From Luteibacter aegosomaticola (GTDB taxonomy: Bacteria > Pseudomonadota > Gammaproteobacteria > Xanthomonadales > Rhodanobacteraceae): DNA of 64,000 nt. The DNA lies in NCBI RefSeq assembly GCF_023078475.1, contig NZ_CP095741.1:4496501-4560500 (forward strand). Reading direction: 5' to 3'. Position 1 is the first letter of the stretch. Every line of letters begins with the position of its first letter. The notes beneath the pieces were generated by a model. The model was not told the DNA's origin and ran no database searches. It saw nothing but the letters and a program-made list of their open reading frames with translations. Both the position numbers and the translations under genes were made by a program. This document shows, piece after piece, positions 47,834 to 63,520 of the stretch.

Positions 47834-48769
47834 TCAGGCTATGGGCGCCGCCCCCGCATCGAAGCGTGTGCTGAACGAGCAGAGCATCACCAGATCGCGC
47901 TCCGGGTCGCTGGTCTGGTTCCTGCCATGCAGCACACGGTAGTTGTCGATCAGAACGAAATCGCCGGTTTGCCAACGTATGCCACGCGTGATGGACCGGG
48001 CGGCCAACCGAAGCTCATCTAACAAGCCCGCATCAATCTCGCTGCCGTCCTCCCAGGTCACCTGGGTACTGAAGGATCCTTCGGCGTCCTCATGATCGGG
48101 GCGCTTATAGGCTTGGGTGAACACGTTCTGGCTAACCGCCTGCTGCCCCGAGTCGTGCACGGGGGTCAGGGCCTCCACGGCGAACTCAAAGACGACACGG
48201 CGATCGCTACGCTCCGTGATACTGACGCCGCGGCTAGCCAGGGCAGGCTCCACGTCGCCACCGAGCAACGCATGCACCACGGAATTTCCCGTGAGGATCG
48301 CATCGAACGCTTCCGGCGGAACGTAGTTGCGGAAGCGGATGCGACGCCGCGCCAGGATGGCACGCGCTTCGGGCGACAGCTTTTCAAGAATGGCCGCACC
48401 ATCGGCTACCAACGTTTCCCCGCCGGTGCCCTCGCGCGGGGCGCGGCGGCAGTAGAACCAGAGAAGGTCGGGCCGCAACGGGCTGTTTCCGTACTCGAAG
48501 TGCAGATCGAGGGCGGCCTGGCCAACGGTGACGGTCTGCAGCTCGTTGCGGTCGCTGGCAGGCTTCCTGTCACCGAAGGGTGAGAGCAGGAAGCCACGGC
48601 TGAAGCGGGACGCGTAGGCATGGAATGCGTCCGCGTCGACTCCGAACCCCCGAAAGAGCACGGCACCATGCCGCGCAAGGTCACTCCAGACCGTATCGTC
48701 GTCGATCTCACCAAGCGACCGACCTGATGCCGCGAGAAGCCTGGGGCGATCACTGATAGCTGTATTCAT
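47834..48769 (-). CDS. TauD/TfdA-type Fe(II)/2-oxoglutarate oxygenase
   Basis: 311 aa, last gene of the putative RiPP operon. The metal site reads LHFEYGNSP (His90-x-Glu92) with a distal His in NYRVLHGRNQ, that is, HxE...H. HxE is the form used by clavaminate synthase-like hydroxylases of free or carrier-bound amino acids, whereas TauD itself uses HxD. RNYVPPEAF and the final RDLVMLCSFSTRF (2-oxoglutarate Arg region) fit the superfamily. The start overlaps the ATP-grasp gene by 20 nt. Predicted role: hydroxylation of a residue in the peptide or of a building block joined by the ATP-grasp enzyme. Confidence 0.8.
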   Translation of the reverse strand: MNTAISDRPRLLAASGRSLGEIDDDTVWSDLARHGAVLFRGFGVDADAFHAYASRFSRGFLLSPFGDRKPASDRNELQTVTVGQAALDLHFEYGNSPLRPDLLWFYCRRAPREGTGGETLVADGAAILEKLSPEARAILARRRIRFRNYVPPEAFDAILTGNSVVHALLGGDVEPALASRGVSITERSDRRVVFEFAVEALTPVHDSGQQAVSQNVFTQAYKRPDHEDAEGSFSTQVTWEDGSEIDAGLLDELRLAARSITRGIRWQTGDFVLIDNYRVLHGRNQTSDPERDLVMLCSFSTRFDAGAAPIA

Positions 48770-49931
48770 GCGTCATCCGCTCCGTCTGGTGGGAATATCC
48801 AATGGCTGCAAGCAGGGCTTCGCGTCTCTCGGCAACCTGGGAAAGCGTGTCACCACGCAACACCGCCTTGAACTGGCCGTCCGCGCAATGGCTACTCTGG
48901 CTTCGTTCGCCAGCATCATCGACAAAGCACTCGACGATCCACGGAAGCGTACGGATATAGGCCTGGTCCACTGACAGCGGGACCCCATGGGGCACAAGCA
49001 GCCACGAGGTCTCCGCGAGTCGGATCGCGGGAGGGGCCGGTGCCGCGCCGCATTGCGCCGCGTAAGAAGCCTGGTACAGGTTGATCCCGTAGGCCGCCTC
49101 GATGGCCGCCACGATGCCGATGCCGCCAGGACGGCTGGCTATCTCGCAGAAATAGAGTTCGGTCTCGGAATAAAACATCTCCAGATGGAAGGCGCCGTCC
49201 TGGAATGCGGGCAGCAAACGGAATACTTCGCGCATTGCCGCTTCCACGCGCCGGTTGAGCGCCGCGTCATGGGAGAACTCACTACCAACGTAGGTGAACT
49301 CGGTAAACGAGAGGCAGAAATTGAGGTAGCGCGATACAGCGAAGAAGCTGACCTCGCCATCCACGACCAATCCGTCGACGTGAAGCATCGGAAGGTCGAT
49401 GAATGCCTCAAGCATTTCATCCTGTGCGACCGCGTCAACGCTTGCGATATCCGGGAAGATACGTACCTCGATACCACCCGAGCCCAACAACGGCTTGCGA
49501 ACGATGGACACGATCCCGTCCGGGGAAAACACTTCCTCCTGTGCACGCCGCTGAAGGGGCGACCAGAAAGCGGGCAGCTTGAACGTCCCTGCCGTACGAA
49601 GATATTCCTTCATGAACAGCTTGTTGCGGAACGCGCGCGCGCTCATGAATGATTGCCCCGGCAACCCTAGCGCTTCGCGGATCTTCGCCGCCAGCAGCAC
49701 ATATTGCTCATCCATGCAGGCCACGCGGGTGATCAGTTGGCGCACACCGGCCTGGTCGAGGGCCGCCAGTACACCGCCAAGCGTCATCTCATCGGCGTGG
49801 ATGGCTTCCATATCGCCCTCGGCCTCGACGGTCGGCGCGGCGCCTGAAGGCTTGATGACAATCAGCCGGCGTGTCGCCGGTACTTTCACTGGTTCCGCGC
49901 CCGCTACAAGCAAAACAGTTTGCTCGATCAT
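48750..49931 (-). CDS. ATP-grasp family ligase
   Basis: 393 aa. ATP-grasp signs: SFMSARAFRNKLFMKEYLRTAG, IVRKPLLGSGGIEVRIF (nucleotide lysine and glycine loop), and the metal-binding FHLEMFYSETELYFCEIASRPGG. The fold activates a carboxylate as acyl-phosphate for amide or ester bond formation. It is not a recognisable graspetide macrocyclase; it looks nearer to amino-acid/peptide ligases and carboxylases. ATGA overlap with the cupin gene upstream and 20-nt overlap with the oxygenase downstream bind it to the operon. It may couple an amino acid to the peptide, or the core to another acid. Confidence 0.8.
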   Translation of the reverse strand: MIEQTVLLVAGAEPVKVPATRRLIVIKPSGAAPTVEAEGDMEAIHADEMTLGGVLAALDQAGVRQLITRVACMDEQYVLLAAKIREALGLPGQSFMSARAFRNKLFMKEYLRTAGTFKLPAFWSPLQRRAQEEVFSPDGIVSIVRKPLLGSGGIEVRIFPDIASVDAVAQDEMLEAFIDLPMLHVDGLVVDGEVSFFAVSRYLNFCLSFTEFTYVGSEFSHDAALNRRVEAAMREVFRLLPAFQDGAFHLEMFYSETELYFCEIASRPGGIGIVAAIEAAYGINLYQASYAAQCGAAPAPPAIRLAETSWLLVPHGVPLSVDQAYIRTLPWIVECFVDDAGERSQSSHCADGQFKAVLRGDTLSQVAERREALLAAIGYSHQTERMTHEYSYQ

Positions 49932-51004
49932 GCTGCCCCCCGCATGGCCAGGTCATCGAGATGGCGAAGATACGATGCGCGGACGGCCGCTAGCTGACCA
50001 TCACCATCCGTCGCCAGCGACGATGCGAGTACCGCCCGCATGACTTTCCGCCCGAGTTCCACCGGGGGTAGCGTCGCGATATCCGTGCTCCGAAGGTGGC
50101 TCGAAAGCTTCTGCAGGAACGTGTCGGGGCGGGCCTTCACTCGCTGGCCGAGCACGGTTGCCCAGTCCGGGGATATGGCGTAGTCCGCAAGGTTGCTCTC
50201 GTCGACGAAATCGAAGCTGACCGAGACCGATGTCTCGAGTGTGCGTACATGGTGGGCCCATTCCGTCCCTACGTAGAGCACCTGCCCCGGCAAGAGCTCG
50301 GCATGCCAGGGGGTGGCCTCTCGCCACGTCGGAAATTCAGTGTCGTCGGGCGCCTCTGGATCCATGAAACCGATACCTGCCTGGTAGACATGCGCCAGGT
50401 CACGAGGGGCATAGAGCGTCGCACGCTTGCGCCCTCGTAGCTGGGCGATCATGGCGATGGTGCCGTTGTTATCCACATGCAGCGGCGTCAATGCGCCGGG
50501 CAGGCTTACCAGCAGCCACAGGTGGTTGAACAGCGAGTAGTAATAGGGAAGCGCATGGTTAACCGGTTGCAGCGGTGCAGGGACGAGCGGAAATACTTCC
50601 GCGAAGGTCGGATCGTCTGCGCGGTGTACGAAGCGCAAAGTGCCGCAGTACAAGGGAAGGTCCTGCGCAGCGAAGGCCTCGTACGATCCCTCGAGCCAGC
50701 GCCCTTCGTAGAGCTCCCTGGCGCGGTCCGGCTGCTCGATGTAATCGAGGTAACGGGCGAAATCGGTCTCGACGCTCACAAGACTGGCGCTACGATGCGT
50801 GACGAAGTTGGGTGCTTTCGCGAACGCGCCTATGTGGCCAAAACGTTCCCTCAACACGCCGAGGTCCTGCCACGCCGCGTAGCTCGGCCAGTCTTGTATG
50901 TAGCCACTGATGATCCACGGGCTGTCATGGAGAACCCTCGGGTTTTCGCGATACAACCGGGCAAACTCAGCGACGTCGATCACGGGAATGGCACGGGCCT
51001 TCAT
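49928..51004 (-). CDS. Cupin_8/JmjC-like Fe(II)/2-oxoglutarate oxygenase, cassette B
   Basis: 358 aa from ATG at 51004. The JmjC/cupin_8 core carries the metal triad: LTPLHVDNNG (His, Asp) and EWAHHVRTLE (distal His), with KRATLYAPRD between. N-terminal IPVIDVAEFARLYRENP and SPWIISGYIQDWPS are typical of tRNA-Tyw5/FIH-type peptide hydroxylases. It is clearly paralogous to the gene at 53076 (GYVEQWPAW, LRERFGH, TDFA.YLDY, LPLYCG, PYYY are shared). It probably hydroxylates a residue of the precursor core. ATGA overlaps on both sides. Confidence 0.85.
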   Translation of the reverse strand: MKARAIPVIDVAEFARLYRENPRVLHDSPWIISGYIQDWPSYAAWQDLGVLRERFGHIGAFAKAPNFVTHRSASLVSVETDFARYLDYIEQPDRARELYEGRWLEGSYEAFAAQDLPLYCGTLRFVHRADDPTFAEVFPLVPAPLQPVNHALPYYYSLFNHLWLLVSLPGALTPLHVDNNGTIAMIAQLRGRKRATLYAPRDLAHVYQAGIGFMDPEAPDDTEFPTWREATPWHAELLPGQVLYVGTEWAHHVRTLETSVSVSFDFVDESNLADYAISPDWATVLGQRVKARPDTFLQKLSSHLRSTDIATLPPVELGRKVMRAVLASSLATDGDGQLAAVRASYLRHLDDLAMRGAA

Positions 51005-51900
51005 GCGTAAGCTCCCTGGCAACGGTGCAAAAACGGATCGCCACCGGCGCGCGCCTGCGCGGCAACGAGCACGGTGACGTGGGCGAGGATGGTGGCAGCC
51101 GCACGCGCGGTCATGCCATCGTGATCAAGCAGGGGGTTCACCTCGGTCAGGTCGAACCCCACGATCTGCCGCTGCGCGGCGATAACCTGGATGCACCCCA
51201 CCACATCGGCGATCGTCAGGCCGCCGGGAACCGGGTGGCCCGTGCCGGGAGCGATGTTGGGATCGAGCGCATCGATGTCGACCGACACATAGACAGGCGC
51301 GCCCGGCCGCAACCACGCGTGCGGGAGGCCCGCAATGCCACCGTCCACCGGGACGACGTCCAGACGCGGATCCTGGGTGGACTCGTCGAAGTACGTCATG
51401 CCCCGATGCCCCACGACGAGGATCCGATCCACCCCGGGTACTGTCGCTACGCGGCGAAGTACCTGCTTGTGGTTGTGCGGAAGTCCGACGTCCCACGGGC
51501 AAAAATCGGTATGCGCGTCGAACCACACGATGTCGATCGGTGTGCGCGAGGCGATGGCCGCGATCGCACCATAAGACACGGCGTGGTCGCCGCCGATGAC
51601 CAGCGGAATATCCCCGGCGAGATGACGCGTGAGAACGGCATCCTGCGTTCGCGCCACGATGCCTGGCCAGTCCACGCCATCGTCGACGACGATATCGCCA
51701 TGGTCGGTGCCGGCATCCATCGGCACGTCCAGGCCGAGGCTGGCGCCACGTATAGCGGCCGGCCCCTGGCGGCCACCCGATACGTACGCGTTGCCGTAGT
51801 CGGATGGTACGCCTACGACGGCAACCGCCGCGCCCCCTCCCTGGCGCGCGTCTCGCGGCCAGCCAAAGAGCGTCGTTGGATGCGAGGGCGGGATCGTCAT
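51001..51900 (-). CDS. Ureohydrolase (arginase/agmatinase family), cassette B
   Basis: 299 aa. All dimanganese ligands are present: IGGDHAVSYG, WFDAHTDFCPW and SVDIDALDPNIAPG, then the EVNPLLD end motif. In this setting the likely reaction is hydrolysis of an Arg side chain in a peptide to ornithine plus urea, as known for the peptide arginase OspR of landornamide biosynthesis; that is an inference. ATG at 51900 is coupled by ATGA to the RRE-like fusion gene upstream, which may present the substrate. Paralogue of 54160. Confidence 0.87.
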   Translation of the reverse strand: MTIPPSHPTTLFGWPRDARQGGGAAVAVVGVPSDYGNAYVSGGRQGPAAIRGASLGLDVPMDAGTDHGDIVVDDGVDWPGIVARTQDAVLTRHLAGDIPLVIGGDHAVSYGAIAAIASRTPIDIVWFDAHTDFCPWDVGLPHNHKQVLRRVATVPGVDRILVVGHRGMTYFDESTQDPRLDVVPVDGGIAGLPHAWLRPGAPVYVSVDIDALDPNIAPGTGHPVPGGLTIADVVGCIQVIAAQRQIVGFDLTEVNPLLDHDGMTARAAATILAHVTVLVAAQARAGGDPFLHRCQGAYA

Positions 51901-53075
51901 GAAGAACCCCTGGCAGCTGATACCGCCGCGACAAGGAGGTGGAGCGCGGTCATCGCGAGCGCGCCCCAGCACGGGTGCGCCGGATTCAAGCCGCACACAT
52001 CGATCGAGATGACCCGCCGGTTGCGGGCAACACTGGTTACGATGGCGCGCACTGTCCGATAATCGAAACCCGTCGATGTCGCCGATGCCAGCGCCGCCAT
52101 GTCGATGCCAAGGTGAACCGGCACATCCGCCTCATCCAGCCACGAAGCGTCACCACCCTGGGGCGTCACCTGGCGATACCGGCCTGCGCCGGGCCATGGC
52201 CGTTGTTCGGGTCGCCCCGCTGGTACGAGGTCGTAGTAATGCCGTACACCGGACAGGGCAAGTGCATGCGAAGCGAGCGTGTTGGCCGTTGGCAGCGCAT
52301 CGCCTTGCGCGGTCTTGCCGCCACCCGTGCACACGCGTATGACATCGACCTCGCCAGGCCCTGCGCACGCGCTGATGGGGACGAAAGCGGCGCTGCTATC
52401 GCCGCCCAGCACGATGCCCGTGGCACCGCCGCTGGTCAGGATGCGCCACGCCTCGCGCCCACGCTCGAACACATGCCTGGCCGGCTCGCCATGGCGGACA
52501 AGCACATCGCCGGCATCGGCGATCGCGACGCCTTGCAGGATCGGACGGCGTTCATCGGCATCGAACCAGCCCGCCGCGCGCCCGGTGATGGGGTCCACGC
52601 TGTAAAGCAACTGCAGGGATGTCTCGCGCAGGGCCAGCGGCCCGCGTCTCGCGCCCGCGGCGGCGGGATCGCCAAAATCCCAGGGAAACCCGACGACAAC
52701 GATATCCGCTTCGCTGGCGACGAGCTTCGCGGCGGGGCCGTCGAACAGCCGGACTGGCGGGTCTGTCAGCAATCGCGCGACAGGCGGTGTCCCCGGTGGA
52801 ACCAGAAAGCCGCGTGCACGCAGTTGGTCCAGGGCACGCCAGGCGGCCGAGCCCAGCGGCTCCGCCACGGCAGCCAGCAGGGAGGGCCGCATGAACCGCA
52901 TGAGTGCGGCGTGCAACGCTTTGGGTAGGCGCAGGCGCGTGCCTACGCCTTGCAGGCAGATCGTAACCTGCCTGTCGTCAAGCGACTCCACCACGAACCC
53001 CGGTGCAAGGACGAGGTAGTCCCCGGCATCCACGTCGGCGTGCCCAGGGGGTGCACTGTTCGCGCTACTGCTCAC
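51897..53075 (-). CDS. RRE-like domain fused to a degenerate ureohydrolase, cassette B
   Basis: 392 aa with a GTG start directly after the cupin stop. Residues ~15-100 (YLVLAPGFVVESLDDRQVTI, then a helical LDQLRARGFLVPPG) resemble a PqqD-like RiPP recognition element. The rest has the arginase fold pattern with ligands lost: LGGDSSAAFV (His to Ser), no DAHxD, and HLGIDMAALAS for SVDIDALDP. It should be catalytically dead and is probably a substrate-binding partner of the intact enzyme at 51001, with which it overlaps by ATGA. The domain assignment is by eye. Confidence 0.75.
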   Translation of the reverse strand: MSSSANSAPPGHADVDAGDYLVLAPGFVVESLDDRQVTICLQGVGTRLRLPKALHAALMRFMRPSLLAAVAEPLGSAAWRALDQLRARGFLVPPGTPPVARLLTDPPVRLFDGPAAKLVASEADIVVVGFPWDFGDPAAAGARRGPLALRETSLQLLYSVDPITGRAAGWFDADERRPILQGVAIADAGDVLVRHGEPARHVFERGREAWRILTSGGATGIVLGGDSSAAFVPISACAGPGEVDVIRVCTGGGKTAQGDALPTANTLASHALALSGVRHYYDLVPAGRPEQRPWPGAGRYRQVTPQGGDASWLDEADVPVHLGIDMAALASATSTGFDYRTVRAIVTSVARNRRVISIDVCGLNPAHPCWGALAMTALHLLVAAVSAARGSS

Positions 53076-54143
53076 TCACGCCACCGCCTGTGCGTCGAGG
53101 GCATCCAGCAATGCCTGCTTCGTCGCGCGCGAACGCGCCGACAGGTCGCCCTTGAGGGCGTTGGCGAGTACAACCGCCATCAGGCTCTGGCCGATGTCAT
53201 CCAGCTCGCCATCATCAAGCAGTGCGTGGAGTCGTTTATCCTGGGTGCGCGCACGCACGAGGTCGGCGTGCTTTCGCGCGAAATGACCCAATTCGCCGCG
53301 CCAGTCTGCCGATCCGGCGTACTCGGCCAGGTTGAGCATGCTAACCATGTCGTGGCTTACCGTGATCGAGTCGGATAGCGTCACCACGTGGTGTGCCCAG
53401 TTCGGCCCCCATATCAACAGGTCGCCCGGCCCCAGGCGCCCTCGCCAGGGCGTGGCCTTTCGCCAGGTGGGAAAATCGACGTCGTCCGGGTTGAGCGGGT
53501 CCAGGTAACCAACCCCAGCAGAGTAAAAATGCGCCCTGTCGGTGGGCGAATAAAGGATCGCCTCCTTCTCACCCTGCAGCTGGCCAAGGTACGCGATGAC
53601 CGCGTTGTTATCCTGGTGCAGGGGCGTCAACGCGCCACGCAGGCTGACGTAGAGCCACACGTGGTTGCCTGACTGATAGTAGTAAGGGATCTCATCATTC
53701 AGGCAGCCCAGGCCGGGTGGAACCGAAGGCGAGATCTCATCGAACACGGCGTCACGCGCATGCCGGACAAGCTGGAGGTTGCCACAGTAGAGCGGCAAGC
53801 CGAGCTCTTTCAGCAGGGTTGAATCACCGCGCGTCCAACGCCCGGCAAAAAGCTCATCGATAGCGGCGGGGTCGGCGACGTAGTCCAGATAGGTCGCGAA
53901 ATCGGTGCGCACCTGGCACATCCGGGTATCTCGGTGCGTCGTGAACTGCGGCGCTCCGGCGGTGACGGGAAGGTGACCAAAACGCTCGCGCAACAGCCCG
54001 TGGTCACGCCAGCGCGTCCAGGCCGGCCACTGTTCTACATAACCTTTGATGATGAAAGGCGTAGAGGCCAGAACGGTGAAATCCCGCTCGATCAGTTCCT
54101 GGAACGTGGCAGCGGAACAAACAGGGATCTCTTTCGCTTCCAT
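53076..54143 (-). CDS. Cupin_8/JmjC-like Fe(II)/2-oxoglutarate oxygenase, cassette A
   Basis: 355 aa. Metal triad in LTPLHQDNNA (His, Asp) and NWAHHVVTLS (His), with EAILYSPTDR between and PYYYQSGNHVWLYVSLRGA before. Paralogue of the oxygenase at 49928 but clearly diverged, so each may hydroxylate a different residue. It lies 16 nt after ureohydrolase A and abuts the fusion gene of cassette B (TGA then GTG), which joins the two cassettes in one transcript. Confidence 0.85.
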   Translation of the reverse strand: MEAKEIPVCSAATFQELIERDFTVLASTPFIIKGYVEQWPAWTRWRDHGLLRERFGHLPVTAGAPQFTTHRDTRMCQVRTDFATYLDYVADPAAIDELFAGRWTRGDSTLLKELGLPLYCGNLQLVRHARDAVFDEISPSVPPGLGCLNDEIPYYYQSGNHVWLYVSLRGALTPLHQDNNAVIAYLGQLQGEKEAILYSPTDRAHFYSAGVGYLDPLNPDDVDFPTWRKATPWRGRLGPGDLLIWGPNWAHHVVTLSDSITVSHDMVSMLNLAEYAGSADWRGELGHFARKHADLVRARTQDKRLHALLDDGELDDIGQSLMAVVLANALKGDLSARSRATKQALLDALDAQAVA

Positions 54144-54159
54144 GGCCGTGCTTCCTTCG

Positions 54160-55017
54160 TTAGGCGCGGGCGGATGAGTGTTCGGCGGTGTCCGCCACGG
54201 CGTGGAGCACGGTTGCGGCGATGGCCGATGTCATGCCGCCCACATCCAAACGGGGGTTAACCTCGACGACGTCCGCTCCGCAAACCCTTCGGTGCCGGGC
54301 GATCGCCGTGACAAGTTCAATGAGGCGTGCAGGCGTGAGGCCACCAGGCACCGGCGCGCTGGTACCCGGCGCCTCGAACGGTTCGACGACATCGATGTCT
54401 ACCGATACGTACCACGGCAGCTGGGCATCCATGAGCCGCAGCAAAGCGGGCAGGTGCATCGTCGCCGCTTCGACGGCCGGGATCACGTGCGCTTTGCTCC
54501 CGAGGCAGGTCTCGTCGTCCGCGGTAAAGCCGCGGTAGCCCACCTGCACGATGCGTTGCACGCCAGGCAGTGCTTCCACGCGGCGCAGGACCTGCTTGTG
54601 GCTGTGCCCGCGCGTGCCCTGCCAAGGGCTGAAATCGGTGTGCGCATCGAACCACACCACGCCCATCGGGTGCCGCTGCTGCAGGGCGTCGATGGGTGCG
54701 AAGGTCAGGGAATGATCGCCGCCGATCAACAACGGACGGTGTCCGTCATCGAGGCAACCGGTGACAGCCTCGTAAACGCGTTCGACCAGGCTGCCCACGG
54801 AGAGGCCGGCGGGGACGAGGACGTCTCCACCATCGCAGCCCACCTGCCGCCGGGTGGCCAGGCCGTGCGATGCACGACGGATGGCGGCAGGCGCGAGTGC
54901 GGCGCCGCGGGAAACGCCGTTGCCGTGATCCGACGGCACGCCGAGCACGCGAAAGCTATCGCTCCTGGACAAGGCTTCCCCGTGGATGGGCCAGCCAAAG
55001 AGGGTCGCTGCGCTCAT
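54160..55017 (-). CDS. Ureohydrolase (arginase/agmatinase family), cassette A
   Basis: 285 aa from ATG at 55017 (ATGA overlap with the fusion gene). Metal motifs: IGGDHSLTFA, WFDAHTDFSPW, SVDIDVVEPFEAPG (both Asp kept, final DP changed to EP), then EVNPRLDVGG. GHSHKQVLRRVEALPGV matches HNHKQVLRRVATVPGV in the cassette B enzyme, showing common origin. Proposed peptidyl-arginine to ornithine conversion. An upstream start is open but would run into the fusion gene. Confidence 0.87.
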   Translation of the reverse strand: MSAATLFGWPIHGEALSRSDSFRVLGVPSDHGNGVSRGAALAPAAIRRASHGLATRRQVGCDGGDVLVPAGLSVGSLVERVYEAVTGCLDDGHRPLLIGGDHSLTFAPIDALQQRHPMGVVWFDAHTDFSPWQGTRGHSHKQVLRRVEALPGVQRIVQVGYRGFTADDETCLGSKAHVIPAVEAATMHLPALLRLMDAQLPWYVSVDIDVVEPFEAPGTSAPVPGGLTPARLIELVTAIARHRRVCGADVVEVNPRLDVGGMTSAIAATVLHAVADTAEHSSARA

Positions 55018-56144
55018 GCGCGCCTCCGCGAGGCCACCGCGCGGTGCATGGCACGCAGGATCACGTGGCATGCGGCAACCGCTGCGAGGGGAGCCTCGGG
55101 GCGGTCCATGTCCAGCCCCGTGACGTTCATCCCCACGAGCCGGCCGGATACCGCAACGGCCGCCACCAACGCGTCTGTCTCGTCGATGGTTAGTCCCCGG
55201 CCTTGTCGGGGTACGGCAAGATCCAGGGCACCGAGGTCGAGTGCCAGGAAGACGTTGCCGCTGGGAAGTGCTCCGCGCGCGGGCAGGCCCTGCAGGGTCT
55301 GTACCCTACGCACCCCGCCAAGGCGTGCGAGCTGGCGATCGAGGTTCTCGACACATACCAGTTCGTCATCCGGAACCACTCCCGCGGGATGGGCTGCGAT
55401 ACGTACGACGCTCAGTGGCCCCGACAGCGCCGCGTGCCGCGCGGCGGCGTATGTGGATGTGGCATCGCCACCAAGGATGACGGGAAGCGAGGCCACTCCA
55501 GGCAGGGTCGCAAGCGCCGCGCCAATGCGGTCCATCGTCTCCGCTTGTTCTTCGCCGAAATGCACGGGCACGTCGCCCGCGTCGCACAGGCTTACTCCAG
55601 CCATGATCCGATGCCCTGCCGCTCCGTCATGCCAACCCAATGGCAACCGCGAATCGAAATCCACCAGATACACATAGTCTTGCGACTTCGTCCGTATCAG
55701 AGAGGGGGCATCACGGTGGTTACCCGTGCCGCCGAGGTCGTACGGGACGCCCAGCACGGTGATATCCGGCTCATCGCCGGGAGCTGCGGCCGGTGCATGG
55801 CAGAAGCGCAGCGGCACGGCCCGTCGTGGCGCCACGGCATGTACGGGGGGATTCGCGGCATCCACAAGGAGCCCACGCTCGAGCAAAGCCCGCACGCCCC
55901 GCGCCCACCTGCCATCGGCATCGCCCGTGGTGCCGGCCTCCAGGGTGGTGGGCTCGGCGAAACGGCATAGCAACTGGTAAGCACCGCGGCCAATGCGGGC
56001 ACGCCGCCCTGACGTCGTATCCACGATCAGCACGTGTAGCTCGCCCTGGGCTTCGATCATCAGGCCGCGCGCCTGAACGATCAGCCGGGGCGTCGGTTCG
56101 GTGGGTTCTGATGGCGCGGCGGCGCCCAGCGCATCCAGCGTCAT
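55014..56144 (-). CDS. RRE-like domain fused to a degenerate ureohydrolase, cassette A
   Basis: 376 aa. The N-terminal ~100 residues (LIVQARGLMIEAQGELHVLI, ALLERGLLVDAANPP) look PqqD-like; the C-terminal ~260 keep the arginase scaffold with dead sites: ILGGDATSTYA (His to Ala), IAAHPAGV for DAHTD, LALDLGALDLAVP for SVDIDALDP. Paralogous to the gene at 51897. The start is 1 nt after the M50 stop and the end overlaps the intact ureohydrolase. It probably recruits the leader peptide to the active subunit. Confidence 0.75.
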   Translation of the reverse strand: MTLDALGAAAPSEPTEPTPRLIVQARGLMIEAQGELHVLIVDTTSGRRARIGRGAYQLLCRFAEPTTLEAGTTGDADGRWARGVRALLERGLLVDAANPPVHAVAPRRAVPLRFCHAPAAAPGDEPDITVLGVPYDLGGTGNHRDAPSLIRTKSQDYVYLVDFDSRLPLGWHDGAAGHRIMAGVSLCDAGDVPVHFGEEQAETMDRIGAALATLPGVASLPVILGGDATSTYAAARHAALSGPLSVVRIAAHPAGVVPDDELVCVENLDRQLARLGGVRRVQTLQGLPARGALPSGNVFLALDLGALDLAVPRQGRGLTIDETDALVAAVAVSGRLVGMNVTGLDMDRPEAPLAAVAACHVILRAMHRAVASRRRA

Positions 56145-56145
56145 C

Positions 56146-57444
56146 TCAAGCCACCCTACCCGGCATGTCCTGAGGAGCGGTGAGCCGGCGCAAGGCCCTC
56201 AGCAGGCCCCTTCCGATATTCCAGAAGGTCATGGTGGCACCGACGATGACCAGCAATCGCCAACCTGTCTCGAGGAAGGCATGGGCCACATTGAGGGCCG
56301 ATGGCGTCGTACTGATCACGCGCACATGCTCGTCAACGAATGCCGGCAGGTTGCGCAACACGTTAAGCACGACCACCTGGAACATGGTCTTGAGCACGAA
56401 CGCGATGAACAGGGTGCCAGCCACCGTGTACAGGGAAAGCACCCAACGCGCACGGCGGCTCAATGTCGTACGCGTCGGCCCACGCGCACCACGCACCCGG
56501 GCTGCCAGCTCCTGCCACCACGCTTCCTGCTGCTTGCGCAGGTTGACGATCCCGAACAGGTCACTGACGAGCCAGTAGCCATCCATGCGTAGGAACGGAT
56601 TGAAGGTATTCGCGATGGAAAGATCGACGAAGACGAACCCGAACAGGAACAGCGGATGGTGGGTCGCGAGGTAAGCCGCCACCAGCGCGGCCAGGAAAAA
56701 CGATTCGAAGTAGACGCCGCCGATATCAATGATGGCGCGTTGACGCCGGGGCAGCTTCCACGCATCGGAGACATTGGTCCACAGTACCGTGTAGACGAGG
56801 TAAACCCCCCAACCTATGGTCATGTCGCGACAGCCGAAATGCGACGCGGCGCTGGCGTGGCCGAACTCATGGCATAGCGTGGCGAGTGTCGAGATGAGCA
56901 TCAACAGCAGGATGCTGGTGATGTCGAGCTGGTTGAAATCGAACTGGCTACCCTTGAGGAGGAATGCATACACATAGACGTGCATGGCGACGAACATCAG
57001 CAGGCCGGCGAGCATGGCCTGCCCGCGAAACAGGAATGAGAGCCGGCGCGCCACGGGCGCGACCACCGAAGCCTTGATGATGGGCAACTTGATATGCAGG
57101 AAGGATCGGGTCGATTGGGCACTGGTCGCCGCCCTTGCAGGATCCTGGCCAGGGCCAACAAGAATGCCGCTGGGCAGCAGCGATTGCTCAATGAGTTTAC
57201 GCAACCATTCCACGTCGCGCGGCGTATCCTGCTGCGCGCGGTACACGTCGATCGCCTCGACGATGGTCCGTTCGCCGTCGAAACTACCGGCCAATGCCAG
57301 GTAGTCGGCGGGGACCGCAAAGCGTACATCACCCTCCCCGTCTGCGCGGGGCAGCACGCACAACTTCATCGGCCGGCTGGCATCGGAATCGAAATCCGAT
57401 ACCTCGAGCAGGGGGTTGACGATAAGTGTCATCGCATCGCTCAT
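56146..57444 (-). CDS. M50-type membrane metalloprotease with N-terminal RRE-like domain
   Basis: 432 aa. Residues ~40-95 (VRFAVPADYLALAGSFDG, then VEWLRKLIEQSLLPSG) look like a small winged-helix/PqqD-type domain. A membrane protein with about six helices follows, bearing HEFGH (192-196) in a hydrophobic segment and NTFNPFLRMDGYWL, whose Asp288 is the third zinc ligand of site-2-type proteases. Such proteins occur in RiPP and peptide-export clusters and could remove the leader at the membrane. It is the first gene after the precursor peptides, behind a strong hairpin. Confidence 0.82.
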   Translation of the reverse strand: MSDAMTLIVNPLLEVSDFDSDASRPMKLCVLPRADGEGDVRFAVPADYLALAGSFDGERTIVEAIDVYRAQQDTPRDVEWLRKLIEQSLLPSGILVGPGQDPARAATSAQSTRSFLHIKLPIIKASVVAPVARRLSFLFRGQAMLAGLLMFVAMHVYVYAFLLKGSQFDFNQLDITSILLLMLISTLATLCHEFGHASAASHFGCRDMTIGWGVYLVYTVLWTNVSDAWKLPRRQRAIIDIGGVYFESFFLAALVAAYLATHHPLFLFGFVFVDLSIANTFNPFLRMDGYWLVSDLFGIVNLRKQQEAWWQELAARVRGARGPTRTTLSRRARWVLSLYTVAGTLFIAFVLKTMFQVVVLNVLRNLPAFVDEHVRVISTTPSALNVAHAFLETGWRLLVIVGATMTFWNIGRGLLRALRRLTAPQDMPGRVA

Positions 57445-57460
57445 GTCATGGCGTACCCGG

Positions 57461-57490
57461 GTGCCCCGCCAGCTCGCACCGGCGGGGCAC
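57461..57490 (-). terminator. Perfect hairpin between precursor genes and the modification operon
   Basis: GTGCCCCGCC and GGCGGGGCAC are exact 10-bp arms around a 10-nt loop. No T-run follows, so it is likelier to be a partial terminator or a 3'-stabilising stem. Either would make precursor transcripts more abundant than the downstream enzyme genes, as in many RiPP operons. Confidence 0.7.
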
Positions 57491-57510
57491 GTTCGGCAAG
57501 CAGGCGCGCT

Positions 57511-57639
57511 TTACTGCGCCTTGCTCTTATCACAGCGGCCGTTGCAGCGGTCCGCCAGTTCGAGACGATCCTCCAGTTCGATGATTTCGAACTCGTCGAT
57601 CAACAGGGTCTCGTCCTTTGCTTCGATGTTGTTGCTCAT
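57511..57639 (-). CDS. Putative RiPP precursor peptide 1 (42 aa)
   Basis: AAGGAG 7 nt before ATG 57639. The product is 42 aa: an acidic, helix-prone leader (LLIDEFEIIELEDRLEL) and a short C-terminal region beginning Asp30, with RCNGRC at 31-36 and a basic/polar tail (DKSKAQ). Leader and RCNGRC are nearly identical to those of precursor 2, while the tails differ, the signature of precursor peptides under selection. R31 and R35 are obvious targets for the two ureohydrolases, and the Cys pair for the radical SAM enzyme. Confidence 0.82.
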   Translation of the reverse strand: MSNNIEAKDETLLIDEFEIIELEDRLELADRCNGRCDKSKAQ

Positions 57640-57665
57640 GGTGATCTCCTTGTCAGTGAATGGAA

Positions 57666-57803
57666 TTACGCGGACGGCGAGCTGCTCTTGCCGTTGCAAC
57701 GGCCGTTACAACGATCGGAGAGCTCAAGGCGGTCTTCCAGCTCGATGATTTCGAACTCGTCGATGAGCAACGATTCTTCCTTCGTCTCGATGGTGTTGGA
57801 CAC
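57666..57803 (-). CDS. Putative RiPP precursor peptide 2 (45 aa)
   Basis: A GTG start at 57803 with GAGG about 9 nt upstream gives a 45-aa product: leader with LLIDEFEIIELEDRLEL, then SDRCNGRCNGK and a Ser/Pro tail (SSSPSA). It differs from precursor 1 mostly at the very ends (N33-G34 repeated as N37-G38). The short length and GTG start make it easy for gene finders to miss. 26 nt separate the two genes. The 128-bp gap upstream (57804-57931) may hold a dedicated promoter; I see no consensus one. Confidence 0.8.
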   Translation of the reverse strand: MSNTIETKEESLLIDEFEIIELEDRLELSDRCNGRCNGKSSSPSA

Positions 57804-57931
57804 GATACGTTTCCTCTGTTGGTTGAGCATTCAACGCAGCAGGCCTCCCCCGCCGCGCGCGTGATGTACTCGACAAGCAACGACCACCACCCGGTACATC
57901 GACAGGTGGCAATTCCCATGTTCAAGGCCGA

Positions 57932-59164
57932 TCAGGCCAGGGCACCCGACCGGACGGGAATGACGGCATGGCGGCTGGCGAGCATGCGCAGAAGCTTCAA
58001 GGCCTTTTCGCGTCGTGCGCCATCACATCCATCAAGCCATGCCTGGTCGATGCCCACGGGGCCAGTGATCTGCTCCATGAAGGCATCGTCGTCCTGGGCG
58101 AATCGGTAGCAGCGTGTGGACTGCACATCGACGAGGATCCGTTCTCCATTACCCGGCAGTTCCATCACGCGCGATGCATCGAGGGCCAAGCCGTCTCCTC
58201 GGCCGAGGGCATGGACCAGGTCGTCCTCCACGTCGACCGCCGGGCGCTCGGGCTGCCGGCGCGGCAGGCGCCACTGGTGAAAGAGGTCGCCGCCGCACCA
58301 CTCCCCAGCAGACTCGAGAAGAACTTCGCCAAACCAGGCGTATACATGTGCTGTGGTCGCCTGCACGAAGGCAGCGGCGGCATCGCCCTGCAGGGGGCGA
58401 CCGGGATCAAGCAAGGGCAGGCACTGGCAGGTGGGCCTGCCATCACGCGTGACGGCAACCACCGGGAGGATAGCCGCCCCGAAACGAGCTGCCATCGCGA
58501 TCAGGCCATTCTTCACCTTTACGTCGGTATCGAGCATGCCAACCGCTTGCCGGCGATCACTGCCGCGCGGCCCATCAATGCCCGTGTTTCCATCGATCGT
58601 GGAAACCACGCAAGCCCCACGCGCAAGGCCACGCGCCAGCACCAGGGCTCCGCCCCGCACCTCCACGCATACGTGCCTGAAGTGCTTCCAAAGCGCGGCT
58701 TCGGGGTTGGCCTGGCGCGCGGACTCGTAGTTGCCGAAGGCATCCGCGGCAAGGGGCACCAGCACCTCTATCCCTGCGTGAGCGAGGTCGGAAGGTAGCT
58801 GCCGCATGTGGCCAAGGTGAAAGGTAACGACCACGATCCCGCGACCCGCAGCCTGCATATCGCGGATGGTCTGCAAAGGGAGGCCAGTGACGGCCGGCGG
58901 CCGCGCCTCTGATGTCAGCCTGGGCAGCGTGTGATGGTGGTACAGCCAGCCGAGCCAAAGTTTGCTCAATGCCGCCTCGCGCGCAAGACGCATGATTTCC
59001 GCCGTGCTTCGCCTACCGCCCAGGAGCGCCAGGAGGTTCATCCGATAGGCGCGAAGCCCGTAGTGGCAGAGCTCCTCGTCAGACAACGCCTCCAGCCGCT
59101 GCTTCATAGCCTCCGGCTCGATGGCATCCGAACCTAACCACGCGCTGAGCGAAGACGCGCTCAC
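57932..59164 (-). CDS. LpxL-like lysophospholipid-acyltransferase family protein, RiPP operon
   Basis: 410 aa. The middle (~residues 90-290) fits the LpxL/HtrB acyltransferase superfamily: GIVVVTFHLGHMRQLPSDLA, then GDVKVKNGL-like VKVKNGLIAMAARFGAAILP and VVAVTRDGRP. The catalytic HX4D/E is not canonical (His followed five residues on by Arg). The last ~100 residues (ERILVDVQSTRCYRFAQDDD, then a helix) look like a weak PqqD-type domain. ATGA overlap with the radical SAM gene. In some RiPPs (selidamides) ornithine side chains are fatty-acylated by GNAT enzymes; an analogous job with an unrelated enzyme is a testable guess. Confidence 0.7.
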   Translation of the reverse strand: MSASSLSAWLGSDAIEPEAMKQRLEALSDEELCHYGLRAYRMNLLALLGGRRSTAEIMRLAREAALSKLWLGWLYHHHTLPRLTSEARPPAVTGLPLQTIRDMQAAGRGIVVVTFHLGHMRQLPSDLAHAGIEVLVPLAADAFGNYESARQANPEAALWKHFRHVCVEVRGGALVLARGLARGACVVSTIDGNTGIDGPRGSDRRQAVGMLDTDVKVKNGLIAMAARFGAAILPVVAVTRDGRPTCQCLPLLDPGRPLQGDAAAAFVQATTAHVYAWFGEVLLESAGEWCGGDLFHQWRLPRRQPERPAVDVEDDLVHALGRGDGLALDASRVMELPGNGERILVDVQSTRCYRFAQDDDAFMEQITGPVGIDQAWLDGCDGARREKALKLLRMLASRHAVIPVRSGALA

Positions 59165-60630
59165 GGTACGAGCTCCGCAACGGCCGCCGCTTGCGGCCCA
59201 TCACTACCCGCCACGGCTGGCCGGGAGGCTTCGAAGAAAGCGACCATTTCCTGCTTCGCCGTCCTCCGGATACCCGGGCACGGTCGCTCGCCGGAATCAA
59301 TGCGGATCTTCGGACAGTGCACGCCCTGGCAAGCCGCGAGCATGTGGCAGCCCTGGCAGCCGGTATCGCGCTCGAACGCTGGCTCCGTCCATAGGGCCAT
59401 CTTGTCGGTATCGAGATCAAGCGTGCCATCCGGCCGGATCTTCCCGACCATGTTGTGATCGGCCTTGTCCAGGTCGATCGTGCACTTCATAAGGTCACCG
59501 TGGGCGCCCACGATGAAGTTGTAGGGACGCGCGGCATAGCACACCTCCTCACCGGCGCCGAGCCCTGGCCGCCACCCTCCCGTGACGTGGAGCCCAAGCT
59601 TCCGCGCGGCGGCCGTCAGCTTTTTGCGCACCGCGTACGATTCATCCGTACCGCATACCGCCAGGTTCGCGTCATTGGCACCGCCCCACTGGCCGACCGC
59701 ATGGAATGCAAGGATGAAGCGGTCATCGTGGGCGAACCGCTCCTCAAGCATCAGCAGGAAGCGCTCGAGACCCGGCGCATTCTGCTGGTCAAAGTTGACC
59801 CGGATCACGACAGTGAAATGGTCATTCCGCGCCGCCAGGGTGCACAGGTTATCGAAGATCACCTGGAACGTGCCGCTGCCATCGCGGCCGCCACGATGAC
59901 GATCGTGGTCATCAGGCAGCCCGTCGAGGGTGATCTGGAAGTCATTGATCTTCCAGGCGAGCAACTTGTCGGCCACCTCTTCGGTAAGAAGATAGCCATT
60001 GGTCGTCATGTGGGTGTCGTAACGCAGGCCCGCTTCGGCAGCCACTTCGGCAAAGAAGGGCCCGAGGTCGTCTATCGCATCCATGCCGTAGAGGGGCTCG
60101 CCACCAAACCATGAAACGCTTAGTTCCCGCAGGGAACCCAGGCGCGACCTCACCAGGTTCTTGATACCTTCCCGCACGTCGGGCTGCATCGTGCCGCGGC
60201 GGAAATCTTCGTAACAGTACGTACAGCGGAAGTTGCAATCCTCCGAGGCGAGGAGAATGAACTCAAGCCTGTCCGTTCTGTGGATGTCCGAACCGAACGC
60301 CATCTGCACACGCCTGAGTTCGTCAGCCGCCGCAGGAACGAGGAAGCCGCGTTCAGCCAGGTAACGCGCGATCTTCGATGCGTCGCTCGCCGTGGTCTTC
60401 TGGCTGATCAGGTCCCGTACCGCGTCGTGTTGCTCGGGACGAAAGGCATTCATCGATCCGCTGTAGGTATTCCAAAGCAGGAGCCATCCTTCGCTGGTCG
60501 TGGCCTGCACGTTAAAGCGCGACGGCTTGAACGACAGGCTGGCCTTCGACGGCACCGAACTACCATCAATCAACCTGATCGGAATGCGGTCCAGTGGGGA
60601 CCTGGCCAGAATATCGGTACTCGAAACCAT
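59161..60630 (-). CDS. Radical SAM/SPASM peptide-modifying enzyme
   Basis: 489 aa from ATG at 60630. Residues ~35-100 (RFNVQATTSEGWLLLWNTYS, then IARYLAERGFLVPA) resemble an RRE domain. The radical SAM 4Fe-4S motif is CNFRCTYC (Cys132/136/139), followed by SWFGGEPLYG and TTNGYLL. The C-terminal SPASM region has CYAARPYNFIV, LMKCTIDLDK, CQGCHMLAACQGVHCPK and CPGIR, giving about two auxiliary clusters. This architecture is that of thioether- or C-C-crosslinking RiPP maturases. It is the first gene of the tight operon, 113 nt after the ABC permease stop. Confidence 0.92.
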   Translation of the reverse strand: MVSSTDILARSPLDRIPIRLIDGSSVPSKASLSFKPSRFNVQATTSEGWLLLWNTYSGSMNAFRPEQHDAVRDLISQKTTASDASKIARYLAERGFLVPAAADELRRVQMAFGSDIHRTDRLEFILLASEDCNFRCTYCYEDFRRGTMQPDVREGIKNLVRSRLGSLRELSVSWFGGEPLYGMDAIDDLGPFFAEVAAEAGLRYDTHMTTNGYLLTEEVADKLLAWKINDFQITLDGLPDDHDRHRGGRDGSGTFQVIFDNLCTLAARNDHFTVVIRVNFDQQNAPGLERFLLMLEERFAHDDRFILAFHAVGQWGGANDANLAVCGTDESYAVRKKLTAAARKLGLHVTGGWRPGLGAGEEVCYAARPYNFIVGAHGDLMKCTIDLDKADHNMVGKIRPDGTLDLDTDKMALWTEPAFERDTGCQGCHMLAACQGVHCPKIRIDSGERPCPGIRRTAKQEMVAFFEASRPAVAGSDGPQAAAVAELVP

Positions 60631-60720
60631 CACAACCTCCCATGTCGCTGGAATCAACGCTGGCTACCGTGGGCGCGCCGCTGCTAGTGGCGCGAGGTGG
60701 ATACTCTTTCGTTTTCCCCT

Positions 60721-60742: not shown

Positions 60743-61999
60743 TCAGGCGTCCCTGATGGCTATCGCGGGATCGACGCGCGATGCCTTGCGCGCAGGAACC
60801 CACGTTGAAACCTGGCTAAGTACGACGACGACAACCAACCCGAGCAACGCATACGAGATAGGCAGGCGTGCCATTTCGTAACGCGCGATCAGTGCCATGT
60901 TCAACGCCACCGCCATCACAAGACCAAGCGTCGCGCCTGCGGAGACGATCAGCAGGTTCTCGATCTGGAAATAGCGCAGGATGTCACGTCGCCGCGCCCC
61001 AAGCGCACGGCGGATCCCTATCTGGCGTTTGCGCTGTTCGACCCAGAAACTGGTGAGCGCAAAAATGCCTGTAGCGGTCACCACGAGGAGGATGAGCGAT
61101 ACACCTCCCATCAGCGCCGCCATGCCGACATCGGCTCGATAAGCCTGCTGGCGTATATCGTGGAACGTCTGGATGCCGTCATCCGCGATGACACGCGCGG
61201 CGTTCGTGTGGTACAGCGTGTCGGGTACGGCGTGCAATGCCGCGGCGAGCCTGCCGGGGCGTGCCCTTATGACATACCGGGAGAAGGTCGCATTGATGCG
61301 TGAAGGTACCAGTATCGCGTTATAGGCGAAGCTGGAACTGAATTCGTTGGTTCCCGGTGTCTGCAAGCGCGGAATCACCCCCACGATGGTGCTAGGCGCC
61401 CCTGCACCGTCGAGGTACACGGGCTTACCAAGCGCATCCCCGGCTGGGAAGAGTTTGCCGGCCACGGCATCCGTCACGATGATGGCCGGCGGCGTCGCGG
61501 GATCGCCCATGGCGACGTGCCCCACGTCCGGCGCGGCAAACTGCCTGCCCGCACTGAGCTGGATGCCTAGCGTCGCCAGGGCCGTCTCATCGGTGAAGTA
61601 GTAACTGACGCGCGCCGACGGCTCGGGTTGCGATGGGGCCAGGCCCAGGCCGCCGTTCCACGCCGCGGAGTTCATCAACGGGAGGGAATTCATCGGCGTC
61701 GCGGAGAGCACATCGGGTAACCCGCGGATAGCCGCGAGATCTTCGCGCTGCATGGCATCCAGCACATTGATCGCATCCGCCTTGCTCGTATCGACACCCG
61801 ACCACTGTTGGGTCACCACGAACAGATCGTCCTCCGCGATGCCCGTGGGGCGCGTTACCCGATCCATGCGCGTGCCGATGATGAAGACGGCATTGCACAC
61901 GATCGCCAGCGTGATCGCCACCTGCAGCACGATCAGGACGACGCCGGCCTTGTGCTTCGCGAGCGCCGAAATAAGCGGGTGCACGGAAGGATTCTTCAT
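60743..61999 (-). CDS. MacB/FtsX-type ABC transporter permease
   Basis: 418 aa from ATG at 61999. An N-terminal membrane helix (AGVVLIVLQVAITLAIVCNA), a large periplasmic MacB_PCD-type domain (~residues 45-280), and three C-terminal helices with the family's WVEQRKRQIGIRRALGARRRDILRYF coupling region (seen as RKRQIGIRRALGARRRDIL). ATGA overlap with the second permease. Such pairs expel peptides, lipoproteins or antibiotics, so it may protect against or export the RiPP. The stop is 113 nt from the radical SAM gene on the same strand. Confidence 0.87.
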   Translation of the reverse strand: MKNPSVHPLISALAKHKAGVVLIVLQVAITLAIVCNAVFIIGTRMDRVTRPTGIAEDDLFVVTQQWSGVDTSKADAINVLDAMQREDLAAIRGLPDVLSATPMNSLPLMNSAAWNGGLGLAPSQPEPSARVSYYFTDETALATLGIQLSAGRQFAAPDVGHVAMGDPATPPAIIVTDAVAGKLFPAGDALGKPVYLDGAGAPSTIVGVIPRLQTPGTNEFSSSFAYNAILVPSRINATFSRYVIRARPGRLAAALHAVPDTLYHTNAARVIADDGIQTFHDIRQQAYRADVGMAALMGGVSLILLVVTATGIFALTSFWVEQRKRQIGIRRALGARRRDILRYFQIENLLIVSAGATLGLVMAVALNMALIARYEMARLPISYALLGLVVVVVLSQVSTWVPARKASRVDPAIAIRDA

Positions 62000-63312: not shown

Positions 63313-63520
63313 GTGATCTCCCTGTCCCTGGGCAAAAGCATCGTGGCGTTCTCCCCACCGCGACGGCATCCATCACCCGAGCTTAGAGAAATACGCCTCG
63401 CCGATTGAAGCTGTCAACCGTGTGTTTTCGTTGTCATCAAACATTCGTTGACGCGCGGGGCCGCTGAAGGTATCGCAACCCATTGAATATGCTTGGTGGT
63501 GCAGTTCAACGCCACTTATG

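Follow-up and report, generated by a model that had tools for sequence, protein, structure and literature searches.

Gene organization of the operon

This study concerns a group of genes in Luteibacter aegosomaticola that we read as the biosynthetic operon of a ribosomally synthesized and post-translationally modified peptide (RiPP). It lies in a 64,000-nucleotide stretch of DNA (contig NZ_CP095741.1, positions 4,496,501 to 4,560,500; hereafter, the window) of a genome that forms a single contig of 5.09 Mb. Reading frames, translations, and domain scans reveal eleven enzyme-like genes and two precursor genes, all on the minus strand, between positions 47834 and 60657 (Table 1). They encode, in order, a radical S-adenosylmethionine (SAM) enzyme, an LpxL-like protein, precursors 1 and 2, an M50-type protease, fusion A, argA, cupin8a, fusion B, argB, cupin8b, an ATP-grasp protein, and a TauD-type protein. 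We favor, with a probability of about 0.6, the interpretation that the operon represents a new radical SAM RiPP family in which two arginines would become ornithines or hydroxyornithines, each through its own three-gene cassette, and the radical SAM enzyme would add a thioether. The sequences indicate that a tiny Arg-Cys peptide is very probably turned into a heavily modified natural product by the enzymes of the cluster.

A preliminary description of this DNA had proposed a probable RiPP cluster, new to the literature and centered on arginine chemistry, and this is still the best reading, the precursor and enzymes being kept together in nine of nine clusters. It also described two precursor genes on one strand, which are present with coordinates agreeing to within a few bases, precursor 1 starting at GTG. 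Its count of ten enzyme genes was one too low, and the ATGA overlaps said to join most genes reduce to two exact 4-base overlaps (radical SAM/LpxL-like and cupin8b/ATP-grasp); the remaining genes lie 0 to 128 bases apart or overlap for longer, depending on the chosen start.

Protein families were assigned by Pfam and NCBIfam scans, which confirmed the radical SAM/SPASM enzyme, the M50 protease, and both fusion/ureohydrolase/cupin_8 cassettes. The radical SAM protein is 78-81% identical to its Rhodanobacteraceae relatives and carries CNFRCTYC in all eight aligned proteins; its best NCBIfam match, TIGR04463, reaches 199.8 bits against a cut-off of 525, which places it outside that family. The M50-type protease is related to the daptide and YydH/LiaK proteases, with NCBIfam scores under the cut-offs, and keeps HEFGH and DGYW in 8/8 aligned sequences. 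PF00491, the sole arginase family matched by argA and argB at E values up to 1, is matched by the two ureohydrolases at 198 and 180 bits and by the fusions at 48 and 54 bits (cut-off 22), and the two Cupin_8 proteins match their family at 71 and 66 bits.

Table 1. Features of the operon and its surroundings, with related elements at other loci
Feature	Position	Strand	Remarks
perm1, MacB/FtsX-type ABC permease	61996..63369	-	PF12704 81 bits, PF02687 54.5 bits
perm2, MacB/FtsX-type ABC permease	60743..62458 (longest frame)	-	PF02687 67.5 bits, PF12704 48.6 bits
Radical SAM/SPASM maturase (predicted)	59161..60657, likely start 60630	-	PF04055 59 bits
LpxL-like protein	57932..59164	-	acyltransferase by remote homology; HLGHMR replaces H-x4-E
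H-type pseudoknot RNA (candidate)	57863..57912	-	conserved, upstream of precursor 1; copies in the same place in L022-L024, L029-L035, L121
Precursor 1	57666..57803	-	GTG start, 45 aa, core ...SDRCNGRCNGKSSSPSA
Precursor 2	57511..57639	-	ATG start, 42 aa, core ...ADRCNGRCDKSKAQ
M50-type metalloprotease	56146..57444	-	daptide_HExxH 97.7 bits, below cut-off 300
Fusion A, N-terminal domain + pseudo-arginase	55014..56144	-	PF00491 47.8 bits; 2/6 metal ligands
argA, cassette A ureohydrolase (arginase)	54160..55071	-	PF00491; 6/6 metal ligands
cupin8a, cassette A Cupin_8/JmjC oxygenase	53076..54143	-	Cupin_8 match
Fusion B, N-terminal domain + pseudo-arginase	51897..53075	-	PF00491 54.4 bits; 1/6 metal ligands
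argB, cassette B ureohydrolase (arginase)	51001..51996	-	PF00491; 6/6 metal ligands
cupin8b, cassette B Cupin_8/JmjC oxygenase	49928..51022	-	Cupin_8 match; absent in Fulvimonas
ATP-grasp ligase, peripheral	48750..49931	-	ATP-grasp_3
TauD-type 2-oxoglutarate oxygenase, peripheral	47834..48769	-	PF02668 110 bits
ABC ATPase	L007:3983-4867, runs past window end	divergent	adjoins a TonB-dependent receptor gene
Polyangium Cys-rich GG-type short frames	L038:11522-11983, L039:11513, L040:9096, L041:11401		

Precursor peptides and core motif

The precursors recur in 9/9 clusters, with RCNGRC in every core and a near-invariant leader, LLIDEFEIIELEDRLEL. An alignment of 10 precursors, which leaves out the second copy of Luteibacter sp. 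SG786 (its protein is identical to the L. jiangsuensis copy) and that of genome G1369 (same core), contains 21 invariant columns over leader and core, RCNGRC among them, and the core motif can be written R1-C2-N3-G4-R5-C6-[D/N]7. Loss of the precursor frames from relatives that keep the enzymes, which the preliminary description had named as what would speak against it, was looked for, and all nine clusters keep both. From LID to RC, the codons of 12 gene copies, which include every copy known in these loci, differ without change of amino acid at 17 of 24 positions (two to five codons for one residue), and pairwise comparison of the same 24-codon stretch gives 563 synonymous versus 72 non-synonymous differences, the latter figure being biased low because the stretch was chosen by its protein pattern. 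We judge from these sequences that the precursor frames are beyond chance.

A profile search of 5.8 billion proteins identified 254 precursor relatives at E<=0.01 among 5231 candidates. The core statistics given here cover 120 of these 254, a listing that favors close kin, so that the other 134 may vary more. R1, C2, and N3 are present in 120/120, and RCNGRC could be read in 102. Two residues separate N3 from the next Cys in 118 precursors, which is the N-x-x-C spacing of NxxC RaS-RiPPs, and three do so in the remaining 2. R5 is present in 105 and lost in 15; residue 7 is D or N in 100 of the precursors with R5 (5 without) and in 2 of those lacking it (13 without), an association with a Fisher p of about 1e-11 if the rows are taken as independent, which they are not. 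All 15 precursors lacking R5 keep a Cys at position 6, one residue later in two of them. Our reading is that the core may consist of two R-C-[N/D] repeats, the second of which tends to vanish as a block while its Cys remains. Genome searches at the level of the order, the phylum, the S. gei family, the M. vastator order, and the class of the Sphingomonadales genome found no cluster with a one-Arg core.

Because the Cys is retained when R5 is lost, C6 appears to be independent of R5, which favors a predicted N3-C6 link over an R5-C6 link. The same observation bears on an enteropeptin-like sactipeptide, in which the radical SAM enzyme would link the alpha carbon of either Arg to the Cys that follows it, giving two thiomorpholines, before the arginases act. 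Both arginines do stand directly before a Cys, the second site, G-R-C, resembles the G-Orn-C of enteropeptin, and the available text of PMC12703449 describes KgrD as likewise a PF00491 enzyme that requires the thiomorpholine; the retained Cys nevertheless suggests that its partner is probably not R5, and no methyltransferase was recognized among the operon proteins scanned. We consider this alternative unlikely.

Very improbable, in our judgment, is a pathway without a peptide substrate, in which ureohydrolases, oxygenases, and ligase would synthesize or degrade a small guanidino compound, the short frames being incidental or regulatory. It could draw on the best NCBIfam models of argB and argA, agmatinase and formimidoylglutamase, respectively (both below cut-off), and on the paired ureohydrolases known from metformin breakdown in the part of PMC11271267 available to us; opposed to it are the leader/core pattern shared by the precursor frames of all nine clusters and the 254 database proteins, and the presence of a maturase-type radical SAM enzyme and a RiPP-type protease in the same operon. 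Under the RiPP reading, the unusual constancy of the core across unrelated bacteria speaks for a product aimed at one unchanging target and against a rapidly diversifying antibiotic.

Arginase, pseudo-arginase, and oxygenase cassettes

Metal ligands were scored by aligning the proteins with the canonical ureohydrolase of this genome; the resulting table omits the B copies of locus L034 and all copies of G1369. All six ligands are present in 15/15 arginases (8/8 argA and 7/7 argB), whereas 15/15 fusions (8/8 fusion A and 7/7 fusion B) keep at most two, so that each pair consists of neighboring genes of which one has six metal ligands and the other has lost most, as in MetCaCb. Maximum-likelihood trees built from the rows of this table resolve argA, argB, fusion A, and fusion B as one group each, and an oxygenase tree, which has no outgroup, does so for cupin8a (8 rows) and cupin8b (6 rows). 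Since the A and B copies each form one group, the two cassettes are, by these trees, distinct from before the split of the lineages examined. The duplicated arginase pairs and the Arg-Cys core noted in the preliminary description are thus borne out by ligand counts, trees, and the 120 precursors.

Both oxygenases keep HxD...H (8/8 aligned cupin8a and 6/6 cupin8b), with LHQDNN and WAHHV in 8/8 cupin8a and LHxDNN and WAHHV in 6/6 cupin8b. Among solved structures, JMJD5, which some entries call an arginyl-hydroxylase, is nearest to cupin8a, followed by FIH, an asparaginyl hydroxylase.

The same RiPP family might use its cassettes without dedicating them to sites, either sequentially on one Arg or with both arginases on both arginines, the second set serving dosage or different intermediates. 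Fulvimonas, with both arginase pairs and one oxygenase, indicates that the cassettes are not inseparable units, and the peptide arginases FlmR and OhkR convert two arginines each (PMC12703449, in the text available). Set against this, each of the three genes has kept separate A and B forms throughout the lineages examined, two-Arg-unit cores dominate among the precursors listed, and their second unit varies as one piece; we regard the alternative as quite unlikely.

The LpxL-like protein

Among 8000 scored candidates, the LpxL-like protein has at least 81 relatives, 38% to 100% identical to the window protein and ending at a worst E value of 1e-95, with no remote tail. No Pfam family matches the window protein, and none matches more than one of 75 members (best E value 0.04); the best solved-structure match has an E value of 0.06. 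The acyltransferase assignment of the preliminary description stands as remote homology, since hhalign against the genome's own Lip_A_acyltrans proteins, three in number, yields a probability of 92%, with an E value of 6e-7 for one comparison. His and Glu are the catalytic residues of the Lip_A_acyltrans family. The alignment places HLGHMR opposite HFSHLE, so that the His-x4-Glu of LpxL/lipid A acyltransferases (PF03279) has Arg in the Glu position; H116 and R121 are invariant in the 75 aligned proteins, and the homologues of the same genome (L123-L125) carry Glu where the LpxL-like protein has R121. Acylation is doubtful because of this Arg; possible roles of the protein are amide-forming acyltransfer, another transferase reaction, or binding without catalysis.

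A pseudoknot upstream of the precursors

In 9/9 clusters, two interleaved stems in the order a-b-a'-b' lie between the LpxL-like gene and the first precursor. Dinucleotide shuffles reached the observed pseudoknot score in 0 to 4 of 300 cases for every row but that of Sphingomonas gei, where 13/300 did so; two of the other eight rows are identical. Among 6000 random 64-base stretches of the G+C-rich window, the window's own score of 34.5 was reached 49 times, and the three weakest scores (27, 30.5, and 31) were reached 793, 254, and 212 times. Some rows are therefore unremarkable when taken singly; what stands out is that they agree in place and order.

Stem P2, which was counted on eight distinct rows (alignment A9) and defined on these very rows, pairs in 96.4% of cells, with both sides changed in 3/7 pairs; its covariation score was reached by 0/500 shuffles, and its five further pair types are no more than shuffles yield (436/500). 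Stem P1 was compared by lineage rather than scored, because the aligner loses its register; it varies among lineages yet pairs in each, as TTCGACCT/GGGTCGAA, ATTACCA/TGGTAAT, and TTGCCGCC/GGCGGCGA. A model of P2 plus sequence has one strong match in the genome itself (2.3e-9; next 0.08) and finds every cluster copy searched, as expected since it was built from them, with no match at E up to 1 in ten loci of other radical SAM enzymes. A known RNA family was rejected: Rfam scans gave no family at gathering score in the window and, in the 401 bases around the pseudoknot, just a miRNA match on the opposite strand that is attributable to chance (E=4). The element is a new candidate regulatory RNA, which may act in translation control, transcript protection, or ligand sensing.

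Distribution and genomic surroundings

When 197 genomes of the family were searched with the cassette A fusion, 4 matched, including the genome studied here. A scan with the radical SAM alignment, at one genome per species, confirmed 125 relatives, of which 80 were kept; the first 25 of these (L029-L053) were searched with the window proteins, the other 55 lying outside this search, and 7/25 contained the cluster. An order-level search added one more genome, G1369 (locus L121). The nine clusters are those of the window, Luteibacter jiangsuensis, Luteibacter sp. SG786, Fulvimonas soli, S. gei, Myxococcus vastator, G1369, an uncultured Sphingomonadales, and an Erythrobacter metagenome-assembled genome. 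Searches with the precursor found it in 4/398 genomes of the order, 1/398 of the phylum (this genome alone), 1/397 of the S. gei family (S. gei itself), 2/145 of the M. vastator order (M. vastator and G1369), and 1/385 of the class of the Sphingomonadales genome (that genome itself). The cluster is rare.

The precursor and the genes for the radical SAM enzyme, the LpxL-like protein, the M50 protease, fusion A, argA, cupin8a, fusion B, and argB are present in 9/9 clusters, and cupin8b is absent from Fulvimonas alone. The ATP-grasp and TauD genes, which the preliminary description included in the set, are indeed present in the window's cluster, but their patchy occurrence led us to reject them as core members. 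No ATP-grasp gene was found in the Fulvimonas cluster, or after cupin8b in L121, L122, and L132, the non-Rhodanobacteraceae loci readable well past that gene; loci L033 and L035 end 492 and 808 bases past the cupin8b match. TauD is confined to the four Rhodanobacteraceae clusters: at E<=0.001, the genomes of S. gei, M. vastator, and the Sphingomonadales gave nothing, and that of Erythrobacter gave just a 30% match outside the cluster locus. The sole solved-structure match of the ATP-grasp protein is an L-amino acid ligase (4wd3), and the TauD-type protein has weak matches, every one far under cut-off, to models that include GntD, ClavSyn, and VioC.

The nine cluster radical SAM proteins form one group (support 82/96), in which the Myxococcus proteins group with those of S. 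gei and Erythrobacter (98/93), and the flanking genes of the window's cluster were not found around the Luteibacter and Fulvimonas clusters; together, this placement and the unshared flanks suggest horizontal transfer. Plasmid carriage was rejected: the radical SAM protein matched 43 plasmid records, all below 60% identity, and the cassette A fusion matched none. On viral contigs, no relatives of the precursor or the LpxL-like protein were found.

MacB-type permeases adjoin the Luteibacter, Fulvimonas, S. gei, and Sphingomonadales clusters, and tblastn also places them beside that of G1369. The position of perm1 before the radical SAM gene is the same in three Rhodanobacteraceae relatives, and the true start of perm2 is nearer 61990, relatives aligning from residue 158 onward. 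In the Sphingomonadales cluster, a MacB/FtsX permease gene also lies between argA and cupin8a (L034:17016-19457). The Sphingomonadales and Erythrobacter loci carry genes for a sigma-54 type response regulator and HlyD upstream of the cluster (L034:4448-9379 and L035:1394-4069), pointing to a possible regulated export, and the upstream region of L034 additionally contains a histidine kinase and an ABC ATPase. Beyond the window end, a TonB-dependent receptor gene (PF00593, PF07715; L007:4872-6983, minus strand) adjoins the divergent ABC ATPase; its membership in the cluster was not supported, as it has no match in the sequence surveyed on either side of the Luteibacter and Fulvimonas clusters.

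More distant radical SAM proteins (L036-L041) accompany other Cys-containing precursors. In Polyangium species, short frames of GG type, rich in Cys, come after a related radical SAM gene (51-54% identity) and apparently belong to another RiPP family that is so far unstudied. Acidobacteriota relatives are followed by short frames with GNCSC/GNCGC motifs (L036:11492-11713, L037:6958-7092).

Proposed pathway

The reactions of the favored pathway, their order, and the assignment of sites are predictions from gene content and sequence. The leader would dock the maturases, after which the radical SAM enzyme would form a thioether, most likely from N3 to C6 (NxxC type) or, alternatively, from a Cys to its neighboring Arg (enteropeptin type). 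Each cassette would act on one Arg-Cys-Asn/Asp unit: the inactive ureohydrolase paralogue, with its probable leader-binding domain, would hold the peptide and feed the active one, the catalytic PF00491 ureohydrolase would convert Arg to ornithine, and the JmjC/cupin_8 oxygenase would hydroxylate the new ornithine or the Asn/Asp beside it. One cassette would thus serve each of R1 and R5, the allotment of A to R1 and B to R5 being a guess. The LpxL-like protein may add a further group, perhaps acyl; the M50 protease would then cut off the leader, and the MacB-type pump would export the product.

As to docking, the first 110 residues of fusions A and B are alike (98%) and have no counterpart in argA or argB. 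By eye, they show three strands followed by three helices, as in recognition elements, and similar strand/helix patterns were seen in the M50 protease, the radical SAM enzyme, and the C-terminus of the LpxL-like protein. The fusion domain is a putative leader binder.

Several observations weigh against this scheme. The fusion N-terminal domain matches no known leader-binding model, and no PqqD match was found in 20 fusions or in the operon proteins. In profile comparisons, it resembles the M50, radical SAM, and LpxL-like domains weakly (8%, 13%, and 20%; controls with argA, 0.04% and 0.07%), and these three score below 0.1% among themselves; a common origin of the docking domains is not claimed, the scores being at most suggestive. 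Fulvimonas retains R5 and D7 without oxygenase B, so the link between cassette and site is not strict. Finally, the two fusions group together at 100/99, whereas argA and argB do so at just 82/56; since their kinship rests on one long outgroup, the probable origin of A and B by doubling of one whole cassette is less firm.

More tentatively, this could be the first RiPP pathway with a dedicated three-gene cassette per core Arg (leader-binding dead arginase, live arginase that receives the substrate from it, and ornithine-hydroxylating oxygenase). The product would be a mini-peptide under strict conservation, resembling a cofactor or metallophore, and the new pseudoknot RNA would set its synthesis. 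If the proposed pathway is true, it adds a RiPP family whose combination of two pseudo/active arginase pairs and JmjC oxygenases on an Arg-Cys core did not turn up in the literature search, and offers a setting in which to study how a small-molecule hydrolase is turned onto a peptide by pseudoenzymes and how one cassette per residue could evolve.

Comparison with known systems

Among the papers that a literature search listed, none describes this system in its title or the opening of its abstract; subscription journals were largely outside that search, so absence from print is not established. By analogy, the nearest precedents appear to be enteropeptin, biphenomycin, and metformin hydrolase. 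Enteropeptins (KGR RaS-RiPPs of Enterococcus cecorum) share a radical SAM maturase, GRC, and a PF00491 arginase making ornithine in a short peptide, and a PF00491 arginase together with a GRC core is likewise found here. They reportedly have one arginase and no fused pseudo-arginase, whereas the present operon has two pseudo/active pairs, two cupin_8 oxygenases, an LpxL-like protein, another leader, and Gram-negative hosts; conversely, their Fe-S dependent N-methyltransferase for ornithine has no match among the operon proteins scanned. In the available text on enteropeptins, the arginase acts after thiomorpholine formation at G-R-C (PMC12703449, PMC12395415).

In the biphenomycin-like pathway (pbs), as far as the source text at hand describes it, an arginase makes ornithine, which a cupin-like enzyme then hydroxylates (PMC12257519). 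This order of arginase and cupin-like hydroxylase is shared, and pbs has a separate recognition-element partner protein; pbs differs in using an MNIO and a B12 radical SAM enzyme on an FHAFRF core, none of which is found among the operon proteins and frames, and the same partial text describes no Arg-Cys core or doubled cassette. The parallel with landornamide/OspR drawn in the preliminary description holds for the idea of a peptidyl arginase converting Arg to ornithine and fails for the family: OspR-type enzymes belong to PF12640 and act on other precursor types, whereas the arginases here are PF00491 with an inactive partner, and kinship was rejected on this ground. In selidamides (kamptornamide and phaeornamide), in-peptide ornithine can be fatty-acylated, by an acyltransferase of GNAT type, unlike the remote LpxL relative without catalytic Glu found here.

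Metformin hydrolase (MetCaCb/MefH) also pairs an active ureohydrolase with a paralogue that has lost metal ligands, there as a heteromer (PMC11271267, PMC11399263, from partial texts); neither subunit is active by itself and MetCa alone holds the metal pair, according to the available part of PMC11271267, which shows that an inactive ureohydrolase paralogue can be indispensable to its partner. It differs in its small-molecule substrate and its Ni dependence, and it is not an enzyme of RiPP biosynthesis. Streptococcus NxxC RaS-RiPPs, in the text available, convert N-x-x-C into a thioether from the Asn beta-carbon to Cys (PMC13361665); the core spacing is the same, arginases and oxygenases go unmentioned in that text, and the thioether is predicted here. 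Judged by its sequences against these systems, the operon is a putative RiPP cluster with an architecture of its own.

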